Below, one piece after another: positions 15,008-51,255 of a stretch of 64,000 nucleotides of DNA. This DNA is from Botryococcus braunii. Lineage: Eukaryota; Chlorophyta; Trebouxiophyceae. Each line of letters opens with the position of its first letter. The stretch's first letter is position 1. Below the pieces are notes generated by a model. It was not told the DNA's origin. It ran no database searches and saw nothing but the letters and a program-made list of their open reading frames with translations. The stretch is from assembly GCA_002005505.1 (NCBI GenBank), contig KV908615.1, positions 122,899 through 186,898 on the forward strand. The letters run 5' to 3'. The position numbers were made by a program, and so were the translations under genes.

Positions 15008-15532
15008 TCAGTCGTCGCTCCTCTCTGACAGTCTGGAGTCTCCGTCCTCGTCCTCACTGTCGTCCTCTGTGACCCACTCGTCCACGTGGAACTCGCCCTC
15101 GCCGTAGAGAATTAGTCTGTCAATGTAGTCGTCTCCCAGGCTGCTCAAGGCTAACTCAATGGCTGCGTAGGCTGCTTTCTCTGTCCAATATGCTTCGTGT
15201 GATGGTCCTCCCGTTTGCTGTAGGCACCTCTCAAAGATTGCGCGTGTCAGATATCCCGGCTCTCCGTTGACGAACGAAACTTCCCACAGTGTAAATTTAT
15301 AGGCTGGATATATGGGAAAGCGATCTTGGAACCACTGAGGAGGCGTGAGTGCTCCCCGTCCGTGAGCTTCGTTGACGAAGTCCTTTACCAGAAATGCTTG
15401 TTCTTCAATCGTTCGTGGTCCTTTCTCTCCTCCTGCCTTTCTTCGCTCGTTATATGTTGGAGGAGGAGGTGGAGGAGGAGGTCGTCTACCTCCGCCCGTG
15501 CTCATGCGTCCGCTTTGCCTCTTTCGCGCCAT
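15008..15532 (-). CDS. Cop2 ORF1, uncharacterised pre-gag protein (174 aa)
   Basis: This is a homologue of the ORF1 of Cop4, Cop6 and Cop8. It has a basic N-terminus (MARKRQSGRMSTGG) and a polyproline run followed by TYNERRKAGG. The conserved core has AFLVKDFV, PPQWFQDRFPIYPAYK, a W-E-x-SF motif with EPG nearby, and RAIFERCLQQTGGP. The tail is acidic (EDDSEDEDGDSRLSERSDD). I recognise no known domain. The frame is intact although the downstream gag is broken. The only ATG triplets in it are codons 1 and 10. It could be a Gag accessory or RNA-binding protein, but that is a guess. Confidence 0.85.
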   Translation of the reverse strand: MARKRQSGRMSTGGGRRPPPPPPPPTYNERRKAGGEKGPRTIEEQAFLVKDFVNEAHGRGALTPPQWFQDRFPIYPAYKFTLWEVSFVNGEPGYLTRAIFERCLQQTGGPSHEAYWTEKAAYAAIELALSSLGDDYIDRLILYGEGEFHVDEWVTEDDSEDEDGDSRLSERSDD

Positions 15533-15584
15533 TGCAGATTACTTTGCTCGAGTCATACATTTTTACATGCCCCGCCCAAGAGTT

Positions 15585-22158: not shown

Positions 22159-22227
22159 TCGTAAGCTGGGCAAGTAAGATGTATGACTCGATTGTCTTAA
22201 TCAGCTAGAACGAGGAAGACCGGAAGA

Positions 22228-22725
22228 ATGTCAACTGGCTATACAGGACCTGTGCGACGGCCCCCACCTCCACCACCTATGTATAACAAAAGAAGAAAGG
22301 CTGGTGGTGAAACAGGTTCAAGGACGGCTGAAGAACGAGCTTTCATCATAAAGGATTTTGTCAGCCGCGCATACGGACAGGGCAGTCTTACTCCTCCCCA
22401 GTGGTTCAAGCTGCGTTTCCCCACCTACCCAGCCTACAAAGTCACCGAGTGGGAGTGCTCATTCATTAGCGGAGATCCAGGCTTTGTCACACGATCACTG
22501 TTTGAACGATATTTACAGCAGATTAGGGGCCCCGACAAGGAGGAATTCTGGGCGGAGAGAGCAGCCTACTCAGCTGTGGAGTCTGCACTAGCATCATTGG
22601 ACGAGGATTTTCTTGACTCGCTTGTGGGCAGTCAGAAGGGATACAGCCTAGAAGATTGGCTTACGGAGTCAGACAGCGAGGACGAGGACGGAGACTCCAA
22701 GATATCAGAACGCAGTCACAGCTGA
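22228..22725 (+). CDS. Cop4 ORF1, uncharacterised pre-gag protein (165 aa)
   Basis: This is a homologue of the Cop2, Cop6 and Cop8 ORF1 proteins. The usual first ATG is lost (the codon aligned with it is not ATG), so the start is the second conserved Met (MSTGYTG). It has a polyproline run and the core EERAFIIKDFVSRAYG, PPQWFKLRFPTYPAYK, EWECSFISGDPGFVTR and LFERYLQQI. The acidic tail reads SDSEDEDGDSKISE. The only other ATG is at codon 18, and none occurs in any sense frame from 22282 to the gag ATG at 22742. The stop is 16 nt before that ATG. Function unknown. Confidence 0.85.
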   Translation: MSTGYTGPVRRPPPPPPMYNKRRKAGGETGSRTAEERAFIIKDFVSRAYGQGSLTPPQWFKLRFPTYPAYKVTEWECSFISGDPGFVTRSLFERYLQQIRGPDKEEFWAERAAYSAVESALASLDEDFLDSLVGSQKGYSLEDWLTESDSEDEDGDSKISERSHS

Positions 22726-22741
22726 TCAGCAACCGAACAGC

Positions 22742-22966
22742 ATGAAGAAGAAGGGCGCCAGCACCAGTGAAGAACAGAAGTCAGTTGATGAAGAATCTAC
22801 ATCGACTCCAACCCGGGAACCATGCACTCCCAGCACCTCAAAGGGAGAAGGAGACACCCTCCCCAAGGTTATTGCAACACAAGTCAAGGTTCACATTAAA
22901 CTGCAGCGCAAGGGTCAGAACTTTGTGGTGTGGAGCAATGCATTCACTGCTGCAAATGATGCAAAA
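22742..22966 (+). pseudogene. Cop4 Gag N-terminal fragment
   Basis: It reads MKKKGASTSEEQKSVDEE, then TREPCTPSTSKGEGD and the start of the capsid domain (VHIKLQRKGQNFVVWSNAF), ending NDAK where the Cop5 LTR begins. It is almost the same as the Cop2 start. The remaining gag-pol lies outside the window. Confidence 0.88.
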
Positions 22967-25111: not shown

Positions 25112-25116
25112 GCATC

Positions 25117-25842
25117 TGTTATAATAGTAAAAGAACAATTAGTGACTTTCCCTCAGAAGAGTAATAGTGGCCAGGCTTCTCTAAAGCAATCACTGTGAAC
25201 AATCTTAGAGGTTGAGTAGGGGATGGCAGAACTCTAGAGTTCTGCCATAATTGATCTGGACTGATTCCATTTCGGAGAAAGAAAGTAATGCAATCTGACG
25301 CGTTCTTGCGAGAAAGGATATAGGCAGCAGGCATGAAGGGCTCGGTACTTGTTTGGGACTGAAAGAGCACTCCGGGTGCTTATCTCTGATCAGTTGCCAC
25401 AAGTGTCAACACATAGTCGGGCTCTGCTTGCTCTCCTACACACAGCAAGAGACCCGACCGAGCTTAACACCCTTCGTGCCGGGACATACAGGTGAAGTGC
25501 TGCATCTTAGTAACTTGCATGAACAATTGATTAGGAAGAGGTCTAGATAAGCGTATTAGAATATTGCTAATGCTTGGCTCATCAAACAATGGTAATGCGA
25601 ATTATCTGTCGATGCGTAGAAGAGGTAGTTTGAATTCCTTGGCGTTGAGAGAGAGCAAGAAGCAATGTAATAACTTGTTTGGGACTGAAAGAGCACTCCG
25701 GGTGCTTATCTCTGATCAGTTGCCACAAGTGTCAACACATAGTCGGGCTCTGCTTGCTCTCCTACACACAGCAAGAGACCCGACCGAGCTTAACACCCTT
25801 CGTGCCGGGACATACAGGGAACATTACGCCCAGAATTGTACA
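25117..25842 (+). repeat. Cop6 5' LTR
   Basis: This 726-bp LTR reads TGTTATAATAG to TTGTACA. It holds the perfect palindrome GGCAGAAC-TCTAGA-GTTCTGCC (25225-25246) and the duplicated unit. Confidence 0.95.
25347..25817 (+). repeat. Cop6 LTR internal direct repeats and intron-like spacer
   Basis: A 145-bp unit occurs at 25347-25491 and 25673-25817. The first is followed by CAG|GTGAAG, a good splice donor. The second ends GACATACAG with TTAAC about 28 nt upstream as a possible branch point. GT to AG would span 25492-25817, 326 bp. The same arrangement recurs in the 3' LTR. Confidence 0.85.
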
Positions 25843-25860
25843 GGTTATGGGCCCACCAAC
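25843..25860 (+). other. Cop6 primer-binding site (half-tRNA type)
   Basis: GGTTATGGGCCCACCAAC directly follows the LTR and is complementary to the initiator tRNA-Met anticodon stem-loop. Confidence 0.87.
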
Positions 25861-25883
25861 TCTTGAGCTGGGCAACTGAGAGT

Positions 25884-25943
25884 ATGTTCCGAGCCTACGA
25901 TGGGACGAACGAAGCAGAGCGGAAGGATGTCGACTGGCGGTAA
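25884..25943 (+). CDS. Short upstream ORF overlapping the Cop6 ORF1 start
   Basis: This 19-codon frame MFRAYDGTNEAERKDVDWR begins 16 nt before the ORF1 ATG and overlaps it in another frame. Cop8 has the same peptide with one change (44705-44764). It may lower initiation at ORF1, but the shared peptide may only reflect the close relation of the two elements. Confidence 0.35.
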   Translation: MFRAYDGTNEAERKDVDWR

Positions 25944-26424
25944 AAGACCATTTGTACCCCCACCTCCTTCACCACCTACATACGATAGCCTGAGGCGAGC
26001 TGGAGGAGATACAGGACCGAGAACACCAGAAGAACGAGCATTCCTGGTGAAGGATTTTGTCAGCCGCGCGTACGGACTGGGTAAAGTCGAACAGCCTCAG
26101 TGGTTCAGACGACGTTTCTCTGCATACCCAGCCTACAAAGTAACTGCGTGGGAGTGTTCATTCATCAACGCGGATCCAGGCTTCGTCACGCGAGCATTAT
26201 TTGAACGGCATCTACAACAGATCGGAGGACCCAGCAAACCCGAATACTGGGAAGAAAGGGCAGCCTACACAGCAGTGGAGTGTGCTCTCGCCACTCTTGA
26301 CGAGGACTTCCTACTTTCCCTTTTGGGCAGCAGAAAAGGATTCAGCCCAGAGGAGTGGTGCACGGACCCAGATAACGGAGACGAAGACGGGGACTCGCAG
26401 CGTTCAGAACCTAACGAAGACTGA
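25900..26424 (+). CDS. Cop6 ORF1, uncharacterised pre-gag protein (174 aa)
   Basis: It lies between PBS and gag-pol. The N-terminus is basic (MGRTKQSGRMSTGGKR), then a proline-rich run and PPTYDSLRRAGGDTGPRTPEE. The core has AFLVKDFVSRAYG, QPQWFRRRFSAYPAYK, AWECSFINADPGFVTR, LFERHLQQIGGP, YWEERAAYTAVECALATL and DEDFLLSLLGSRKGFSPEEW. The tail is acidic and Ser-rich. No known domain is recognised; no signal peptide or membrane segment is evident. Only two ATGs occur in the ORF (codons 1 and 10), none in any frame for the next 511 nt to the gag-pol ATG, 16 nt past the stop. The ATG context (A at -3, G at +4) is strong, which favours reinitiation over leaky scanning for gag-pol. Confidence 0.9.
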   Translation: MGRTKQSGRMSTGGKRPFVPPPPSPPTYDSLRRAGGDTGPRTPEERAFLVKDFVSRAYGLGKVEQPQWFRRRFSAYPAYKVTAWECSFINADPGFVTRALFERHLQQIGGPSKPEYWEERAAYTAVECALATLDEDFLLSLLGSRKGFSPEEWCTDPDNGDEDGDSQRSEPNED

Positions 26425-26440
26425 GTGACATTCGAGCAAC

Positions 26441-29400
26441 ATGGCGAGGAAGAGATCTAAATCAAGGGAGCCATCAGAGGAGGAGCCCACAACAGAGGAG
26501 GTGTCTACATCGTCTCCCACACGACAGCCATGTACACCCAGTACATCAAAGGGTGAGGGAGATGTACTTCCTAAGGTCATAGCCACCCAAGTCAAGGTGC
26601 ATATTAAGCTGGATCGTCATGGCACAAATTTTGTGGTATGGGACAATGCCTTCACTGCGGCTAATAGTGCTAAGGGTTCTTTTCCTGCCATTCAGTCAGC
26701 CATGCCTGGGACTATCCATAATGCTGCTGCAATGCTTCTGCTGTATGAGTCAGTTCCAGAGGAATGGTTAGGGGAAGTGTCAAGTAAGCCGTCAGCATAT
26801 GATGCATATCTGTTCATTTGCAAGAAATTTGTTGGTGGTTACAACATTCAAGCCAATGCAGACTGGCTGAAGGAAATGCCAAGAGGGATGAAACGTGGAG
26901 AAACGATCTCTCAGTATGTGTCTAGAATGATAAATCTCAAAGGCTGCTTGAAACGCAACGGCCATGACCTCTTGGATGGTCATGTGGCCACTCAGATAGT
27001 GCAGGGACTGCCAGCAGCAGCTAATCCTCCCGGGCTGTTACCAACTGCAGTAGCTTACCCCCTGGATGAACTGGCAGCTCTCATTTCCACCACTGCAGAG
27101 GCTTCTGGCTACAACGATGATGGAGAACAGCCTGCTATGGTGATGAAAGCAATGCCTGCTCAACTAGAGACTGCTCCAGCCCCTTCCACTAGCGGGGCCA
27201 ATCCCTCCAGACAGCCAACAGACACAGAATCAAGGGGAGAAGTGAGGGGCACGTGCAACTACTGCCACAGGAAAGGCCATTTCTGGAGAGACTGCCGCAA
27301 ACGCCAAAGGGATGCAGAGACACAACGCAATGTGGTGGCAGCTGTACAGCAACTTGCAGCCATGTGGCCCCAAGGACAGTTTCCTGGTGCACCCCAGCCA
27401 CCTCCAAGCGTGCAGCATGCATTCCCAGGCACTGGAGCGTTCCCACTGCTGCACCCTCCTCCAGGCCCACCTTCTCCTCCCTCAGAAGGTATGCCATACG
27501 TGGTATCTTATAATGTGCTGGATGGCAGTAAACATCAACAGTCCAAACAGTCGTGGCTTGTGGACAGTGGAGCGTCTGTACATCTTGTGAACAACCTTTC
27601 CCTGCTGCATGCCCCTACAGTACATGACCACCCTATTCCACTGCTGCTTGCTACATCTGATGCCACTGGGGGTATTGTTGCTACTGGGTCAGTGTGTCTC
27701 ATGTCCTCTCAGCATATTCCAGTGTGGCTGCATCGTGTCCAGTGTGTTCCCTCAGCCACCACCAATGTTCTATCAGTATCTGCTGCTCTGCGTGATGGAA
27801 TCCGGTTCAGTACAGATAGACTGGGAGCATTCACTGCTGTCTCAGGACCGAGTGGTTGGCAGATGCCTGTGAAACCAGAGAATGGCCTCTATTATATTCA
27901 CAACTGCCTCCCAGTAGCACCAGTGAAGGTTCCTTATTCAGTGACAGCTGCCCTGAAGAAGAAATGCTTCAAAGGTCAAAGCCATGACTGTGCCAAACGT
28001 TTTCTGTGGCACAGCAGATTGGGACACCCAGGAGACCCATGGATGAACCGCCTGAGCAGTGAGCAACTGGTTACTGGTCTAGACACTTTAATGTCCCCTT
28101 GTGAAAAGTGTCCTAAGTACTGTGAAGCATGCATTGAGGGGAAGCATGCACGTCCCCCATTTGGTGAAAGCTCTAGACCTGCTGAGAAACCCCTTGACAG
28201 AATCCACATTGACACTGTGGGTCCCATATCACCAGCAGCCATTACTGGGGAACGCTTTTGGGTAACTGTAACTGATGAGGCATCTGGGTGGAAGGCAGTG
28301 CTGCCAGTGAAGTCAAAAGATGTAATTGGAGCTGTTGTCAGAGACCTAATTTTGTATTGGCAAACTGAGAAGGAAACTACAGTGAAGTGCATCCGCAGTG
28401 ACAGAGGCACAGAGTTCTTAAATGCCAAGTTCAAAGAATTCTGTGCATCCCAGGGCACTAAGCTGGAGACATCTGCCCCATATACCCCTCAGCAGAATGG
28501 AGTTGCTGAGAGAGCCAACAGAACCCTCAAGGAGCGCACCAGGACCCTCCTCAATTTTGCTGCAGCAAGCCCTGTTATGTGGAAGGAAGCCCTGGAGACA
28601 GCCTGCACCCTCCTAAATATGGGACCCAGCACAGGCAGGCCCCTATCTCCCTGCGAAATGTTCATGGGATATAAACCAGATGTATCCTTGCTGCGCACGT
28701 GGGGATGCCTTGCATTTGTGCACGTTCCTGATCAGCAGAGGGGGGCATTTGCACCAAAGGCTGTGGCTCGGATGTTCACTGGTTACTCTCCAGCATCAAA
28801 GGCATACCGTGTCTATATGGGAGGGGGGATATGGAGAGAGAGCAGAGATGTCCAATTTGTGGAACACATTCGAGGAGCTACTCGGGTGGGAATGGCAGTT
28901 CTCCCTGACCAGCCTCAGCAGTTCTCATACCCTGAAGACTTACCAGGGCCAATGCAAAGCAGCAACCCAGTGGTGTCATTGCCACAGCGCAGCACGCAGA
29001 ATCAGACTGTCAGCAGCCCATGCTCCAGCAGTAGACCTGACAGCTCCTTCCCAGTACCCTCTGACCAGGCTGCAACTGAGCCTGCTAGTCAGGGGAAGCT
29101 TTCCCAAGAGGAGGGCATTCTCAATGTGACTCCCGAATCAAGCACGGGAGAACAGCAGCCGGACTTGGATCAGTCCGGGGCTCTGGACGCAATTCAACGA
29201 CTGGCGCGAGGAAGTGCAGACGGTGGGCAACACCAACGGATCTTAGAGCGAGTACAGCAATCACTGCGTAACACTCATCCGGCTACTACCATTCCGCCTC
29301 CGGACGGACTGTCGCGGGCTCAACGCTACGAGCAACGAACTGCGGCTCGAGATATCCTGCTGGCACAGGATAAGGGAGAGAGCTGTGAGCGAGAGGGGAT

Positions 29401-31693
29401 GACTGAAGGTGACACAGAGTCACAGGGACCAGGGGAAGCGCAGGAATTGGGGCAGGACACCGAGAGACCTGTTTCACTTGTAAGAGATGAGAGGGGGGCT
29501 GTCTCTGATCAGACTGCAGATGGTCCAAGTGAGATGAGCTGTACGGGTGGGACCTGTTCAGTGCCTGAGAGACATGTTAGAGATGAGAATTCAATTTGTG
29601 ATGCCCAAGGACAATGTGGTGCCAGCCACGCAAGTGTGGGCCATGCATGGGAGTGTGCTGCTGGGCCTGCGCCCCAGCGCTCATGTCTAAGAGGGAGCAG
29701 ACAGAGAGAGAGAGAGACATGGTCACAGCCTCAAGACAGACCAAGAGCTCATGCAATGCAGAGTGGTTCAAATGCCTGTGAGAGTCCTGACGGGACTGCA
29801 GACCGTCAGCCATGTGAGAGTGTGTCTGAGGAGGTGAATCGGAAGCTCAGACAGTGTGAGAATTCTCCCAATTACAAGAGCTTTCCGAGAGGTACCTGTG
29901 CTTGGGAGGATGATGTTAGAGTGTCTGACAGCAAGCTTGAGAGGGCTAGCTGTGAGTCTAAGAGAGAGAAAGAGCAGAGGGGGAGGTGTGGATCTTTGCC
30001 CACAGTTCCCACATGCAGTGCGGCAACATTCAGCGAAAGAGTAGTGGGTGACAGTGAGTGTGAGAGTAAGCAAGATCAGGGGAAGCACACTGGGGTGAGA
30101 TTTGGGAAGATTAGTGTGCCTTCCAGTCTAAAGGAGGCCAAGCAGTCCCCACAGTGGGAATATTGGAAGGCTGCTATGCAGGAAGAGCAAAATTCATTAG
30201 ATGCTCATGAGGTGATGGAGTTTGTTCCGAGACCTCGTGGCCACAGAGTAATCCCAGTTCACTGGATTTTTTCAGTGAAAATGGATGCTCATGGTAATGT
30301 GCTGAGGTTCAAGGCTAGGCTAGTGGCTCAAGGGTGTAGGCAAATTCCAGGAGTGGATGTAATGGAGGTATTTGCTCCCACCAGCAGTTATGGGTCTAGG
30401 AGAGCTTTGCTGTCAGTGGCTGCACAAGAGGGTCTTGAAATCCACCAGGTGGATGTCAAGAATGCATTTTTAAATGGTGAATTAGAGGAGGAGGTCCATG
30501 TCACACAACCTCCTGGGTTTGAAAATGGGGATGGGAACACAGTGTGTCGCTTGAAGAAGGCACTGTATGGCCTGAAGCAAGCTCCAAGGGCATGGCATAA
30601 GACCCTCAATGAAAAGCTCCATACCATGGGGTATGAGGTGTGCAAGAGTGATGCTGGTGTGTATGTGAAATGTTCTGTGGATGGTGGAAAATCCTTTGTG
30701 CTGATTTATGTTGATGATCTATTGATAGTTTCCAAGGGCATGGGTGAGATTGAGAGAGTGAAAGGGTTGCTTAAGCAGGAGTTCACCATTCATGATCTAG
30801 GAGAGGTGAAAGATTTCCTGGGCTGCCAAGTGATGAGAGATAGAGAGAAAGGGTTGATTTCATTGAGCTGCATTCCCAAGATTGATGCACTCATTGAGAA
30901 ATTTGGGCTGGATCTGGAGGCTGTGGGGCCTGACACCCCTATGACTAAGGATTTTGTGGCCACACAGCAACCTGTGTCTAAGGACAACAGTGCCAGCATT
31001 GGAGCTGGGAGTCCCTTGCCACCAGGTCATAGAAATTGTGAACTGGTTGGGTCACTGTTGTACATTGCTAACACCACTAGGCCTGATATTTCCCAGGCTG
31101 TGGGAGTGCTCTCCAGGTATAGGATTACTCCCAGTACTGCTCACTGGAATGAAGCCATCAGAGTGTTGAAATATCTGAAGGCTACCCGGGATCTTGTTCT
31201 AGTACTTGGAGGGACTGACACAGAGCTGGAGGGCTTTGTTGATGCAGATTATGGTGGTGATCAGGATCATCGGTTTTCCACTATTGGTTACGTAATTCGT
31301 GTGTTCGGAGGGGCTGTAGTTTGGGGAAGCAAGAAGCAGTCTGCAGTGGCCACATCCACTGTAGAGGCTGAGTTTATGGCGGCAAGTGCAGCTGTCAAAG
31401 AGGCAAATTGGATGAAGGGATTCCTGGAAGAAATTGGTATTTCTCCTTGGATTGTGAAGATCCACTGTGATAATCAGGGATGCATCAATCATCTCAGAAA
31501 TCCAGTGTTCTCTAAGCATACCAAGCACATTGCAATCAGCTTTCACTTTGCTCGGGAAGCTATTGCATTGGGACAGGTGGATGTGAAATACGTTCCTTCT
31601 GCTAGGAATGTGGCAGATATATTTACCAAGCCTTTGACAAGGCAGGTATTTCAGGGCCATCGTGAGGCTCTAGGACTGGCCAAGTTTTTGTGA
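26441..31693 (+). CDS. Cop6 Gag-Pol polyprotein (copia order)
   Basis: This is an uninterrupted 1750-codon frame starting MARKRSKSREPSEEE. The capsid domain covers about residues 45-210. The knuckle CNYCHRKGHFWRDC is at about 272 and the protease site WLVDSGASVHLV at about 372. The pre-integrase zinc region LWHSRLGHPGDPW is near 520. Integrase has Asp in HIDTVGPIS, Asp in SDRGTEFLN and Glu in QQNGVAERANR (about 588-690). A Ser/Glu-rich, probably disordered linker of roughly 400 residues follows. RT starts near HWIFSVKMDAHGN (about 1273) with catalytic YVDD (about 1423). RNase H has FVDADYGGD, VEAEFMA and CDNQGC. The protein ends TRQVFQGHREALGLAKFL. No motif is broken, so it is probably functional. 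Confidence 0.96.
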   Translation: MARKRSKSREPSEEEPTTEEVSTSSPTRQPCTPSTSKGEGDVLPKVIATQVKVHIKLDRHGTNFVVWDNAFTAANSAKGSFPAIQSAMPGTIHNAAAMLLLYESVPEEWLGEVSSKPSAYDAYLFICKKFVGGYNIQANADWLKEMPRGMKRGETISQYVSRMINLKGCLKRNGHDLLDGHVATQIVQGLPAAANPPGLLPTAVAYPLDELAALISTTAEASGYNDDGEQPAMVMKAMPAQLETAPAPSTSGANPSRQPTDTESRGEVRGTCNYCHRKGHFWRDCRKRQRDAETQRNVVAAVQQLAAMWPQGQFPGAPQPPPSVQHAFPGTGAFPLLHPPPGPPSPPSEGMPYVVSYNVLDGSKHQQSKQSWLVDSGASVHLVNNLSLLHAPTVHDHPIPLLLATSDATGGIVATGSVCLMSSQHIPVWLHRVQCVPSATTNVLSVSAALRDGIRFSTDRLGAFTAVSGPSGWQMPVKPENGLYYIHNCLPVAPVKVPYSVTAALKKKCFKGQSHDCAKRFLWHSRLGHPGDPWMNRLSSEQLVTGLDTLMSPCEKCPKYCEACIEGKHARPPFGESSRPAEKPLDRIHIDTVGPISPAAITGERFWVTVTDEASGWKAVLPVKSKDVIGAVVRDLILYWQTEKETTVKCIRSDRGTEFLNAKFKEFCASQGTKLETSAPYTPQQNGVAERANRTLKERTRTLLNFAAASPVMWKEALETACTLLNMGPSTGRPLSPCEMFMGYKPDVSLLRTWGCLAFVHVPDQQRGAFAPKAVARMFTGYSPASKAYRVYMGGGIWRESRDVQFVEHIRGATRVGMAVLPDQPQQFSYPEDLPGPMQSSNPVVSLPQRSTQNQTVSSPCSSSRPDSSFPVPSDQAATEPASQGKLSQEEGILNVTPESSTGEQQPDLDQSGALDAIQRLARGSADGGQHQRILERVQQSLRNTHPATTIPPPDGLSRAQRYEQRTAARDILLAQDKGESCEREGMTEGDTESQGPGEAQELGQDTERPVSLVRDERGAVSDQTADGPSEMSCTGGTCSVPERHVRDENSICDAQGQCGASHASVGHAWECAAGPAPQRSCLRGSRQRERETWSQPQDRPRAHAMQSGSNACESPDGTADRQPCESVSEEVNRKLRQCENSPNYKSFPRGTCAWEDDVRVSDSKLERASCESKREKEQRGRCGSLPTVPTCSAATFSERVVGDSECESKQDQGKHTGVRFGKISVPSSLKEAKQSPQWEYWKAAMQEEQNSLDAHEVMEFVPRPRGHRVIPVHWIFSVKMDAHGNVLRFKARLVAQGCRQIPGVDVMEVFAPTSSYGSRRALLSVAAQEGLEIHQVDVKNAFLNGELEEEVHVTQPPGFENGDGNTVCRLKKALYGLKQAPRAWHKTLNEKLHTMGYEVCKSDAGVYVKCSVDGGKSFVLIYVDDLLIVSKGMGEIERVKGLLKQEFTIHDLGEVKDFLGCQVMRDREKGLISLSCIPKIDALIEKFGLDLEAVGPDTPMTKDFVATQQPVSKDNSASIGAGSPLPPGHRNCELVGSLLYIANTTRPDISQAVGVLSRYRITPSTAHWNEAIRVLKYLKATRDLVLVLGGTDTELEGFVDADYGGDQDHRFSTIGYVIRVFGGAVVWGSKKQSAVATSTVEAEFMAASAAVKEANWMKGFLEEIGISPWIVKIHCDNQGCINHLRNPVFSKHTKHIAISFHFAREAIALGQVDVKYVPSARNVADIFTKPLTRQVFQGHREALGLAKFL

Positions 31694-31711: not shown

Positions 31712-32437
31712 TGTTATAATAGTAAAAGAACAATTAGTGACTTTCCCTCAGAAGAGTAATAGTGGCCAGGCTTCTCTAAAGCAATCACTGTGAACAATCT
31801 TAGAGGTTGAGTAGGGGATGGCAGAACTCTAGAGTTCTGCCATAATTGATCTGGACTGATTCCATTTCGGAGAAAGAAAGTAATGCAATCTGACGCGTTC
31901 TTGCGAGAAAGGATATAGGCAGCAGGCATGAAGGGCTCGGTACTTGTTTGGGACTGAAAGAGCACTCCGGGTGCTTATCTCTGATCAGTTGCCACAAGTG
32001 TCAACACATAGTCGGGCTCTGCTTGCTCTCCTACACACAGCAAGAGACCCGACCGAGCTTAACACCCTTCGTGCCGGGACATACAGGTGAAGTGCTGCAT
32101 CTTAGTAACTTGCATGAACAATTGATTAGGAAGAGGTCTAGATAAGCGTATTAGAATATTGCTAATGCTTGGCTCATCAAACAATGGTAATGCGAATTAT
32201 CTGTCGATGCGTAGAAGAGGTAGTTTGAATTCCTTGGCGTTGAGAGAGAGCAAGAAGCAATGTAATAACTTGTTTGGGACTGAAAGAGCACTCCGGGTGC
32301 TTATCTCTGATCAGTTGCCACAAGTGTCAACACATAGTCGGGCTCTGCTTGCTCTCCTACACACAGCAAGAGACCCGACCGAGCTTAACACCCTTCGTGC
32401 CGGGACATACAGGGAACATTACGCCCAGAATTGTACA
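31712..32437 (+). repeat. Cop6 3' LTR
   Basis: This is a 726-bp copy of the 5' LTR with no difference seen by eye. It carries the same internal duplication and palindrome. Confidence 0.95.
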
Positions 32438-32442
32438 GCATC

Positions 32443-36483: not shown

Positions 36484-36584
36484 GATCTTACTCTATGTCC
36501 CTCTCCACATCAGAGTCAGACTCTTACTCAGATTCTGAACGCAACTGCTCCTTTGAATTCTCCAAATCCTTGAGTAACCCTGAT
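36484..36584 (-). pseudogene. Cop5 ORF1 C-terminal remnant
   Basis: Upstream of gag, the minus strand encodes LLKDLENSKEQLRSESE, a stop, then ESDSDVERDIE in the same frame. This resembles the acidic ORF1 tails of Cop2 and Cop4 (SDSEDEDGDS). Gyp4 cuts it at 36584/36585. It indicates that Cop5 also carried ORF1. Confidence 0.55.
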
Positions 36585-43934: not shown

Positions 43935-44662
43935 TGTTATAATAGTGACAGAACATTTTGGTGCCTTTCCCTCAGAAGAGTAATAGTGGCCAGATCATCG
44001 TCAATTACCAGAGAGAGCAGTTAGTAGAATGAGTAATCAGTGGCAGAACCCAGGAGTTCTGCCAGAACCAATCTAGACCAATTGCACGTTAATAAGAAAG
44101 GATTAGATAATCGGACACGGTTTGCTCGAAAGGCTATATGCTCCTGGCTCGAAGGATTGAGGCACTTGATTGGGACATCAAAAGCACTTCGGGTGTTTGC
44201 TACTTTACTGTTGCCAGTCAAGTCTCTTCACTCACAGACGACACTGCTTGTTTCTCTACGCACAACAAGAGTGTCGCCGGGCTTAACACCCTCGTGCCGG
44301 GACATGCAGGTAAACTGCTGTCAAGACATCATATGAACATGAACAATGGTTTAGGAAGGGTCTAGATAAGGTACAATAGAAAGGTGTAATTGCTTAGCTC
44401 ATCGGACATTGGTAATGCAGACTATCAGTAACGTTGTTGATAGGATAGTTCGAGTTGCCGAGTGACGAGAGAGAGCAATAAACATTGTAACACTTGATTG
44501 GGACATCAAAAGCACTTCGGGTGTTTGCTACTTTACTGTTGCCAGTCAAGTCTCTTCACTCACAGACGACACTGCTTGTTTCTCTACGCACAACAAGAGT
44601 GTCGCCGGGCTTAACACCCTCGTGCCGGGACATGCAGGGAACATTACGCCCAGAATTGTACA
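43935..44662 (+). repeat. Cop8 5' LTR with internal duplication
   Basis: This 728-bp LTR has units at 44163-44309 (ends CATGCAG|GTAAAC) and 44491-44637 (ends CATGCAG|GGAACA). The intron-like span is 44310-44637, 328 bp. The spacer carries TTAGCTCATCGGACA at 44394-44408. Confidence 0.94.
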
Positions 44663-44680: not shown

Positions 44681-44720
44681 CTCTTGAGCTGGGCAACTGA
44701 AAGCATGTTCCGAGCCTACG

Positions 44721-45245
44721 ATGGGACGAACGAAGCAGAGCGGAAGGATGTCGACCGGCGGTAAAAGACCTTTTATTCCCCCACCTCCTTCACCACCGAC
44801 ATATGATAGCCTGAGGCGAGCTGGAGGAGATACGGGACCGAGAACACCAGAAGAACGAGCATTTATAGTGAAGGATTTTGTCAGCCGCGCGTACGGACTG
44901 GGCAAACTCGAACAGCCTCTGTGGTTCAGACGACGATTCTATGTTTACCCAGCATACAAAGTAACTGCGTGGGAGTGTTCATTCATCAACGCGGACCCAG
45001 GCTTCGTCACGCGAGCATTATTTGAACGACATCTACAACAGCTCGGAGGACCCAACAGACCCGAGTACTGGGAAGAAAGGGCAGCCTACACAGCAGTGGA
45101 GTGTGCTCTCGCTACTCTTGACGAGGACTTCCTACTTTCCCTTCTGGGCAGCAGAAAAGGATTCAGCCCAGAGGAGTGGTGCACGGACACAGACGACGGA
45201 GACGACGACAGGGACGCGCAGCTGTCAGAACCTAACGCAGACTGA
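44721..45245 (+). CDS. Cop8 ORF1, uncharacterised pre-gag protein (174 aa)
   Basis: It is a close homologue of Cop6 ORF1 with the same length, the same basic proline-rich N-terminus (MGRTKQSGRMSTGGKRPF), the same core (AFIVKDFVSRAYG, WFRRRFYVYPAYK, AWECSFINADPGFVTR, LFERHLQQLGGP) and an acidic tail (DTDDGDDDRDAQLSEPNAD). Differences from Cop6 are scattered and mostly conservative; no stop has arisen. Two extra out-of-frame ATGs occur (about 44803 and 44939). The stop is 11 nt before the gag-pol ATG. Function unknown. Confidence 0.9.
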   Translation: MGRTKQSGRMSTGGKRPFIPPPPSPPTYDSLRRAGGDTGPRTPEERAFIVKDFVSRAYGLGKLEQPLWFRRRFYVYPAYKVTAWECSFINADPGFVTRALFERHLQQLGGPNRPEYWEERAAYTAVECALATLDEDFLLSLLGSRKGFSPEEWCTDTDDGDDDRDAQLSEPNAD

Positions 45246-50527: not shown

Positions 50528-51255
50528 TGTTATAATAGTGACAGAACATTTTGGTGCCTTTCCCTCAGAAGAGTAATAGTGGCCAGATCATCGTCAATTA
50601 CCAGAGAGAGCAGTTAGTAGAATGAGTAATCAGTGGCAGAACCCAGGAGTTCTGCCAGAACCAATCTAGACCAATTGCACGTTAATAAGAAAGGATTAGA
50701 TAATCGGACACGGTTTGCTCGAAAGGCTATATGCTCCTGGCTCGAAGGATTGAGGCACTTGATTGGGACATCAAAAGCACTTCGGGTGTTTGCTACTTTA
50801 CTGTTGCCAGTCAAGTCTCTTCACTCACAGACGACACTGCTTGTTTCTCTACGCACAACAAGAGTGTCGCCGGGCTTAACACCCTCGTGCCGGGACATGC
50901 AGGTAAACTGCTGTCAAGACATCATATGAACATGAACAATGGTTTAGGAAGGGTCTAGATAAGGTACAATAGAAAGGTGTAATTGCTTAGCTCATCGGAC
51001 ATTGGTAATGCAGACTATCAGTAACGTTGTTGATAGGATAGTTCGAGTTGCCGAGTGACGAGAGAGAGCAATAAACATTGTAACACTTGATTGGGACATC
51101 AAAAGCACTTCGGGTGTTTGCTACTTTACTGTTGCCAGTCAAGTCTCTTCACTCACAGACGACACTGCTTGTTTCTCTACGCACAACAAGAGTGTCGCCG
51201 GGCTTAACACCCTCGTGCCGGGACATGCAGGGAACATTACGCCCAGAATTGTACA
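50528..51255 (+). repeat. Cop8 3' LTR
   Basis: This is a 728-bp copy of the 5' LTR, followed by TSD aatac and then the rest of the Gyp4 LTR. Confidence 0.94.

Follow-up and report, generated by a model that had tools for sequence, protein, structure and literature searches.

The extra open reading frame (ORF1) that precedes gag-pol in a family of Botryococcus braunii retrotransposons has an N-terminus that is well supported as a mimic of the histone H3 tail (residues 1–14), and in the clade found in the window (clade A) the position of H3 Lys9 is nearly fixed as methionine. The explanation that we favour as a whole, at a probability of roughly 45%, is that this pre-gag frame encodes a histone-mimicking accessory protein that would act against H3K9 silencing and would be made from a two-cistron RNA. 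The window, a stretch of 64,000 nucleotides (contig C318:122899-186898) within a 176-Mb genome, holds several copia elements whose features are collected in Table 1.

Cop6 is a complete copia element, in which the LTR is followed directly by the primer binding site (PBS), then by ORF1 (174 codons from the first in-frame ATG, 165 from the second) and then by gag-pol. The Pfam domains in its gag-pol are RVT_2 (residues 1257-1501, E 2.6e-64), gag_pre-integrs and rve, the last (residues 582-683) scoring 31.3 bits, just under the cut-off of 32.6 bits. By RVT_2, an integrase lying before the reverse transcriptase, LTRs and 5-bp target duplications, the ORF1-bearing elements are Ty1/copia LTR retrotransposons. 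The PBS is presumably the complement of the initiator tRNA-Met anticodon arm, and resembles the half-tRNA priming arrangement known for Drosophila copia. The initial annotation had placed a frame of 165–174 codons between PBS and gag-pol in Cop2, Cop4, Cop6 and Cop8, and it is indeed open in all four; in Cop8 gag-pol is open as well, in Cop4 gag starts at 22742 but is interrupted by 3 in-frame stops within 495 nt, and in Cop2, as had been claimed, ORF1 is intact despite a broken gag (2 in-frame stops within its first 495 nt). The remnant described in Cop5 is also real, but it belongs to clade B and not to the clade of the window, matching residues 136-166 of the clade B protein P0009 at 90%. 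Cop7 is a more distant copia whose gag is 33% identical to that of Cop6; the PBS motif is present, but its leader, about 300 nt long, gave no ORF1 match. Separately, the LTRs of Cop6 (25347-25492 and 25673-25818) and Cop8 (44156-44313 and 44484-44641) contain internal direct repeats of 146–158 nt that are 100% or 97% identical, with a spacing of 326–328 nt.

Table 1. Features of the ORF1-bearing copia elements, in coordinates of the window.
Feature	Position	Strand	Description
Cop6 target duplication	25112-25116 and 32438-32442		GCATC, 5-bp
Cop6 5' LTR	25117..25842	+	726 nt
Cop6 PBS	25843..25858	+	GGTTATGGGCCCACCA; contains ATG at 25847
PBS motif TTATGGGCCCA	22143, 25845, 44665	+	
PBS motif TTATGGGCCCA	15587, 43038	-	
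Cop6 uORF from PBS ATG	25847..25879	+	10 codons
Cop6 overlapping uORF	25884..25943	+	19 codons, other frame; spans both ORF1 start codons and ends past them
Cop6 ORF1	25900..26424	+	174 codons + TGA; H3-like tail, Pro-rich linker, helical core, acidic Ser-rich tail
Cop6 H3 tail mimic	25900..25950	+	MGRTKQSGRMSTGGKRP; Met at H3 Lys9 position, codon 25927-25929
Cop6 ATG-free stretch	25930..26440	+	511 nt, no sense ATG in any frame, up to gag-pol ATG
Cop6 gag-pol	26441..31693	+	One open frame, 1750 codons, Ty1/copia type
Cop6 3' LTR	31712-32437	+	Identical to 5' LTR
Cop8 LTRs	43935-44662 and 50528-51255		Identical; target duplication AATAC
Cop8 overlapping uORF	44705-44764	+	
Cop8 ORF1	44721..45245	+	gag-pol from 45257
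Cop2 overlapping uORF	15486-15560	-	
Cop2 ORF1	15008..15532	-	Tail MARKRQSGRMSTGGGRR; downstream gag broken
Cop4 ORF1	22201..22725	+	First ATG lost, frame SARTRKTGRMSTG; first in-frame ATG 22228
Cop5 ORF1 remnant	36491..36583	-	31 codons, clade B (Lys9-type)

Though the initial annotation recognised no family for ORF1, and so missed the H3 tail, the likeness is visible directly in the N-terminus, which reads GRTKQSGRMSTGGK in Cop6 and GRTKQTGRMSTGGK in a sister copy. Clade A tails include GRTKQSGRMSTGGKRP (Cop6 and Cop8), GRTKQTGRMSTGGKRP (L029), ARKRQSGRMSTGG (Cop2), ARTRKTGRMSTG (L088), GRTRQSGRMSTG (L081), ARTRQSGRMRSG (L086) and ARTRQSGRIRAG (L087). The Cop6 tail is identical to H3 residues 1-13 at 9 of 13 positions, and none of 200,000 permutations was as good. 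For ten hand-chosen clade A tails the permutation p by score ranges from 0/200,000 (Cop6, L053) to about 0.001 (L086, L087), and by identity reaches 0.004, with L084, L086 and L087 attaining only 0.003–0.004. When 1190 distinct Met-started 13-mers from ORFs of more than 60 codons were ranked, the best was an H3-like host ORF (score 59) and the next 15 were all ORF1 tails (50 to 29), the best unrelated sequence scoring 15; the tails score 29–46 against H3 1-13 and at most 5 against H4, H2A and two other parts of H3. A similar picture comes from the PDB, where the sole sequence match of Cop6 ORF1 (E up to 10) is an H3 peptide aligned residue 1 on residue 1 (E 0.63), and where the 20-residue tail of L029 has an H3 peptide as its best match (E 0.0013), the best 60 of its 129 matches all being H3 or H3-derived peptides. 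It is very probable that the mimicry extends to function.

ORF1 is not itself a histone H3 protein, the likeness being confined to the tail. The Pfam histone fold (PF00125) was not found in the four window ORF1s at E up to 1, where Cop2 gave two weak non-histone rows, or in P0009, P0008, P0011 and P0014 at E up to 0.1. A point against the favoured explanation is that all 14 clade A representatives have Gly in place of H3 Ala7. A whole-ORF1 profile had no match in the PDB, and the core of the better predicted model (P0009; pLDDT 78.8, about 90 in the core, seven helices) matched no known fold among solved structures. Residues 1-15 of that model are of low confidence, as expected for a flexible tail. 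Elsewhere in the genome, a host ORF with a partial histone match (L072, G000:C224:264756-267932) is perhaps a variant or centromeric H3.

The protein database lists ORF1 relatives under Botryococcus braunii locus names (Botrbrau1), and tail-pattern matches put the number of copies in the genome at well over 200. We searched the genome with three window ORF1s and scored the best 150 of 802, 793 and 793 candidates; in two of these searches 10 and 21 of the best 150 matches contain an internal stop. The clade A set started from 72 items (60 + 8 loci and the 4 window elements, some of them identical places), with ORF1 located in 71 (all but L061); L046, L050 and L051, where the tail was not found, and L048 and L049, which have a premature stop, were left out, and 30 non-redundant copies were kept after removing those more than 98.5% alike. 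The second Met through the stop spans 495 nt in 27 of these 30. Fourteen hand-chosen representatives served for dN/dS and 14 for the shuffles described below, the two sets differing in one member (L042 in the former, Cop4 in the latter). Pooled over pairs by the Nei-Gojobori method, dN/dS is 0.18 (0.20 in tail residues 2-13, 0.41 in the Pro linker, 0.16 in the core and 0.18 in the acidic tail), which favours a selected protein, and the residue at Arg8 is Arg in 14/14 though written with five different codons. Coding selection on ORF1 is thus well supported. Its location upstream of gag-pol would suit a mere spacer or regulatory uORF without protein function, but given dN/dS of 0.18 in clade A and 0.13 in clade B we find such a role hardly credible. 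Two ORF1 matches lie inside very long open frames (G000:C556:62498-62959, 2655 codons; G000:C565:64999-65376, 1821 codons) and are possibly fused in frame with gag-pol.

Two alignment searches brought in relatives that are 35-60% alike. Among them is clade B, with at least 150 matches in the same genome at 52% identity or more to P0009, where ORF1 likewise precedes gag in a copia element that shares this PBS. Its N-termini have the form MA(K/R)..KQTARKTT, so that H3 residues 4-9 are exact, with Lys9, in 7 of 8 rows, L089 having Gly for Arg8. Seven of ten loci were used, leaving out L094 (no start ATG), L096 (short) and L098 (frame broken). Across these seven sequences the KQTARKTT codons have pN 0.037, pS 0.70 and dN/dS 0.02, compared with 0.18 in the rest of the N-terminus and 0.14 in the rest of the protein, and no other evidence speaks as strongly as this constraint for selection on the H3 residues themselves. 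Shortened clade B ORF1s of 90 codons also occur (L096, G000:C29:750060-750460, and similar), with a full KQTARKTT tail and, among the matches listed, at least 28 rows, all at 89% identity over residues 1-81; they are perhaps non-autonomous derivatives that keep the H3-like tail.

Further relatives come from metagenomes: P0011 GRKRQTARKSTSSKR has Lys9, P0014 HRQTARRSPRGG and P0015 (RRRQTARRNPR) have Arg9, and P0007/P0008 read SRTQTAQRRT. Of 20,000 permutations, 4 equalled the H3 likeness of P0011, 7 that of P0015, 164 that of P0014, which is only weakly significant, and 2818 that of P0008, which alone is not significant. In a tree made from the core only (without P0005 and P0006), the Met9 rows and the Ile9 row form one clade (support 99/99, stem 0.72), whose nearest outside neighbours are P0007/P0008 and P0014/P0015 (Arg9) and then clade B (Lys9); the placement of P0011 is unsure since it lies on a long branch. 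The tree, rooted for drawing only, offers a suggestion that position 9 went from Lys to Arg to Met.

Thirteen of the 14 clade A representatives have Met at position 9, and one (L087, with an open ORF1) has Ile; Ile9 is also found in the two stop-bearing copies, L048 and L049. In the genome, the tail pattern with ATG as codon 9 has 244 matches (0 in the reversed control), against 268 with any codon there (reversed control 22, about 22 expected by chance); the pattern overlooks lineages with other spellings of Arg2 or Gln5, L088 for example. In the reported work on EZHIP, inhibition is obtained with Met or Ile at the site and not with Lys or Arg, and a preference of PRC2 for Arg at -1 is described (PMC6513997); Arg before Met or Ile at the target lysine occurs in clade A only, not in clades B to E. 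For H3K9 itself, H3K9M is described as dominantly blocking H3K9 methylation in fission yeast, and in the structure of the H3K9M peptide in the G9a active site residues 3-12 are ordered (PMC5030085). L029 (TKQTGRMSTG) matches 9 of these 10 residues and Cop6 8. Candidate targets in the host are 11 SET-domain matches; one SET exon (C16:812110-812334) has SUVH6 as its best PDB match (E 1.5e-10) with KMT2B close (E 3.6e-10), a Pre-SET search gave no match, nor did its controls, and SRA matches are fragments, so that an H3K9 methyltransferase of the host is only weakly indicated. That clade A ORF1 inhibits such an enzyme is a tentative proposal, somewhat short of an even chance. Inhibition cannot be what the family as a whole does, since clades B to E carry Lys or Arg or have the motif shifted.

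The most widely shared part of the tail is H3 residues 5-8 (QTAR or QSGR) and not Met9, clade B and P0011 have Lys9, P0014 and P0015 have Arg9, and it is in the Lys9 clade that constraint on the motif is greatest. All of this would fit a mimic serving as ligand or decoy for H3 readers (chromodomain, PHD, SRA/RING) or for histone import, which recruits host factors or steers integration, and in which Met9 or Arg9 only prevents methylation; decoy and integration roles suit the same anatomy. We regard this as a serious possibility, though one with the odds clearly against it, as a mere block to methylation would permit other residues at position 9, whereas clade A has almost only Met, with Ile in L087, L048 and L049, the two residues through which EZHIP inhibits. 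The chief doubt over Met9 is that it could be retained as a second start codon, which would explain a Met without mimicry at that site: M1 is lost in Cop4 and L083, where M9 becomes the first in-frame ATG, and only 2 of 30 non-redundant copies (Cop4, L085) have a further in-frame ATG after it. Together with the basic character of ORF1 N-termini, this could make the tail an ordinary basic nuclear or nucleic-acid-binding segment resembling H3 by chance. Such an account is improbable in view of the permutation, look-elsewhere and PDB tests, the codon-level constraint on KQTARKTT, the open Ile9 copy L087, and the H3 likeness that is retained without Met in the Lys9 and Arg9 clades.

Beyond the second Met, ORF1 is very poor in ATG. 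A recount bears out the statement in the initial annotation that no sense ATG occurs in any frame for 511 nt in Cop6, 510 in Cop2 and 460 in Cop4, and that the gag-pol ATG follows the ORF1 stop after 11-16 nt (15 in Cop2, 16 in Cop4 and Cop6, 11 in Cop8); Cop8 retains two out-of-frame ATGs that it had not listed. Its expectation of 7-8 ATGs at random holds by base composition (about 7) but falls to 3.4–4.5 in the four window ORF1s by synonymous-codon shuffles, and CAT, the antisense of ATG, occurs 7, 7, 8 and 7 times in the same stretches of Cop2, Cop4, Cop6 and Cop8. Depletion goes beyond the shuffles in two clades: the 14 clade A representatives have 15 ATGs against a shuffle mean of 47.6 and minimum of 33, and clade B has 7 against 28.4 expected (CAT 50), with 0 of 1000 shuffles as low in either case, a control that leaves uncounted the near-absence of Met from the ORF1 protein. 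Nineteen of the 30 clade A copies have no ATG in any frame after the second Met (in L087, after its Ile codon) and the other 11 have 1 or 2, while each copy holds 3 to 12 CATs. The next ATG is visible in 29 clade A copies, where it lies 11-16 nt past the ORF1 stop. The first 495 nt of gag are undepleted (81 ATG and 68 CAT in 6 measurable elements), and depletion confined to ORF1 and present in two clades makes it quite unlikely that gag-pol is expressed from a spliced RNA lacking ORF1, with some other cause for the scarcity of ATG. Relative to ORF1, gag is found in each of the three frames, an argument against readthrough or frameshift, though not against splicing.

Upstream of ORF1 the two clades differ in layout. 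As the PBS motif holds an ATG, every copy with a located PBS begins with an extra ATG, which mostly opens a uORF of 5-13 codons and in a few copies (e.g. L040) a longer one running into ORF1. In addition, 24 of 26 non-redundant clade A copies with a located PBS (the exceptions being Cop4 and L084) have a short uORF that overlaps the start of ORF1 and ends inside it, starting 16 or 28 nt upstream in a frame other than that of ORF1 and ending 17-62 nt past the second Met; it is found also in lineages only 53–60% alike in protein to Cop6. With a strong start context defined as a purine at -3 and G at +4 (PMC5902531), the ORF1 ATG of clade A is strong (24/25 and 25/25). Clade B has T at -3 in 7/7 copies, in none of which was an overlapping uORF seen. 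There the next ATG after the ORF1 stop lies at 26-53 nt in five copies and at 1 nt in L097 (another at 13 nt); it is out of view in L090, and is shown to open gag only for the copy of L095. Both layouts, an overlapping uORF with a strong start and a weak start without it, may let ribosomes pass ORF1. The initial annotation had proposed a two-cistron RNA with gag-pol reached by reinitiation or scanning, and neither of the outcomes it gave as refuting, dN/dS near 1 across copies or ATG depletion matched by synonymous-shuffled controls, was obtained; selection on the protein and on an ATG-poor leader speaks for this, but scanning alone would be insufficient in clade A, where strong context and overlapping uORF favour bypass and reinitiation, and translation of two cistrons in this way is probable.

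The nearest known parallels to this anatomy are viral. In the cases reviewed, the upstream ORFs of RTBV and badnaviruses, which use leaky scanning, are cleared of internal AUGs, and in KSHV ORF35/36 and HIV-1 rev/env a short uORF overlaps the first ORF, with scanning resumed and reinitiation at the second (PMC5902531). ORF1 differs from these in lying in an LTR retrotransposon and in having two clade layouts.

Taken together, ORF1 would serve a family of copia-type LTR retrotransposons as an accessory protein. Its N-terminus, predicted to be flexible, mimics H3 residues 1-14, and a proline-rich linker connects this part to a conserved core of helices and an acidic tail; the clade A Met is placed as in the H3K9M peptide that traps H3K9 methyltransferases. 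If expressed, ORF1 would most likely enter the nucleus and most likely occupy Su(var)3-9/SUVH-type enzymes there, probably weakening silencing of the element as an anti-silencing factor. ORF1 and gag-pol would share one RNA, on which ribosomes that leak past ORF1, or that translate the overlapping uORF, would encounter hardly any ATG, or none, before that of gag-pol, at which they would initiate. In its boldest form, which we hold plausible yet somewhat less probable than its opposite, this is a retrotransposon-encoded oncohistone, in which position 9 of the mimic would have changed from a methylatable Lys to Arg and then to Met, the resulting H3K9M form poisoning the host H3K9 methyltransferase, and the two-cistron RNA would have been tuned by ATG clearance and the uORF.

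Extra ORFs upstream of gag-pol are found in elements of the Ty3/gypsy group, namely Retrosat2, RIRE3, RIRE8 and Ogre (its ORF1), unlike the elements here, which are Ty1/copia by RVT_2. The pre-gag ORF0 of Retrosat2, RIRE3 and RIRE8 is reported to evolve faster than its own gag-pol (PMC3485330). ORF1, in contrast, is strongly constrained (dN/dS 0.18).

Viruses and host proteins are known to mimic histones, and K-to-M inhibition has been described in tumours and for EZHIP. To our knowledge there is no earlier K-to-M histone mimic on a mobile element, and ORF1 would be the first. The closest likeness is to EZHIP (CXorf67), the mammalian H3K27M-like PRC2 inhibitor, described as a non-histone protein in which Met or Ile, preceded by Arg, takes the place of the methylated lysine within a short, conserved peptide resembling H3, but as a host gene that mimics K27 with a peptide near its C-terminus (PMC6513997); ORF1 resembles the H3 tail around K9, at its extreme N-terminus, is retrotransposon-borne, and is a putative inhibitor. 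The H3K9M oncohistone peptide studied with G9a/Clr4 (PMC5030085) is similarly close, ORF1 differing by Gly7 for Ala7 and in not being a histone. As a putative anti-silencing protein, ORF1 would be comparable to VANC of Arabidopsis VANDAL transposons, a mobile-element protein that counters transcriptional silencing and is described as sequence-specific (PMC5735166), and to the geminivirus TrAP, a viral protein that also acts against such silencing and inhibits the H3K9 methyltransferase KYP (PMC4606454). Histone mimicry does not figure in the abstracts on VANC (PMC5735166) or TrAP (PMC4606454).

If the favoured explanation is true, a mobile element has independently evolved an H3K9M-like tail, bringing the K-to-M trick into the arms race with silencing, and would supply natural, selected inhibitor peptides for SET enzymes, with the Lys9, Arg9 and Met9 clades as a ready-made comparison. 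It would also suggest a function for an orphan pre-gag ORF, and two different sequence layouts by which ribosomes may be brought beyond it.
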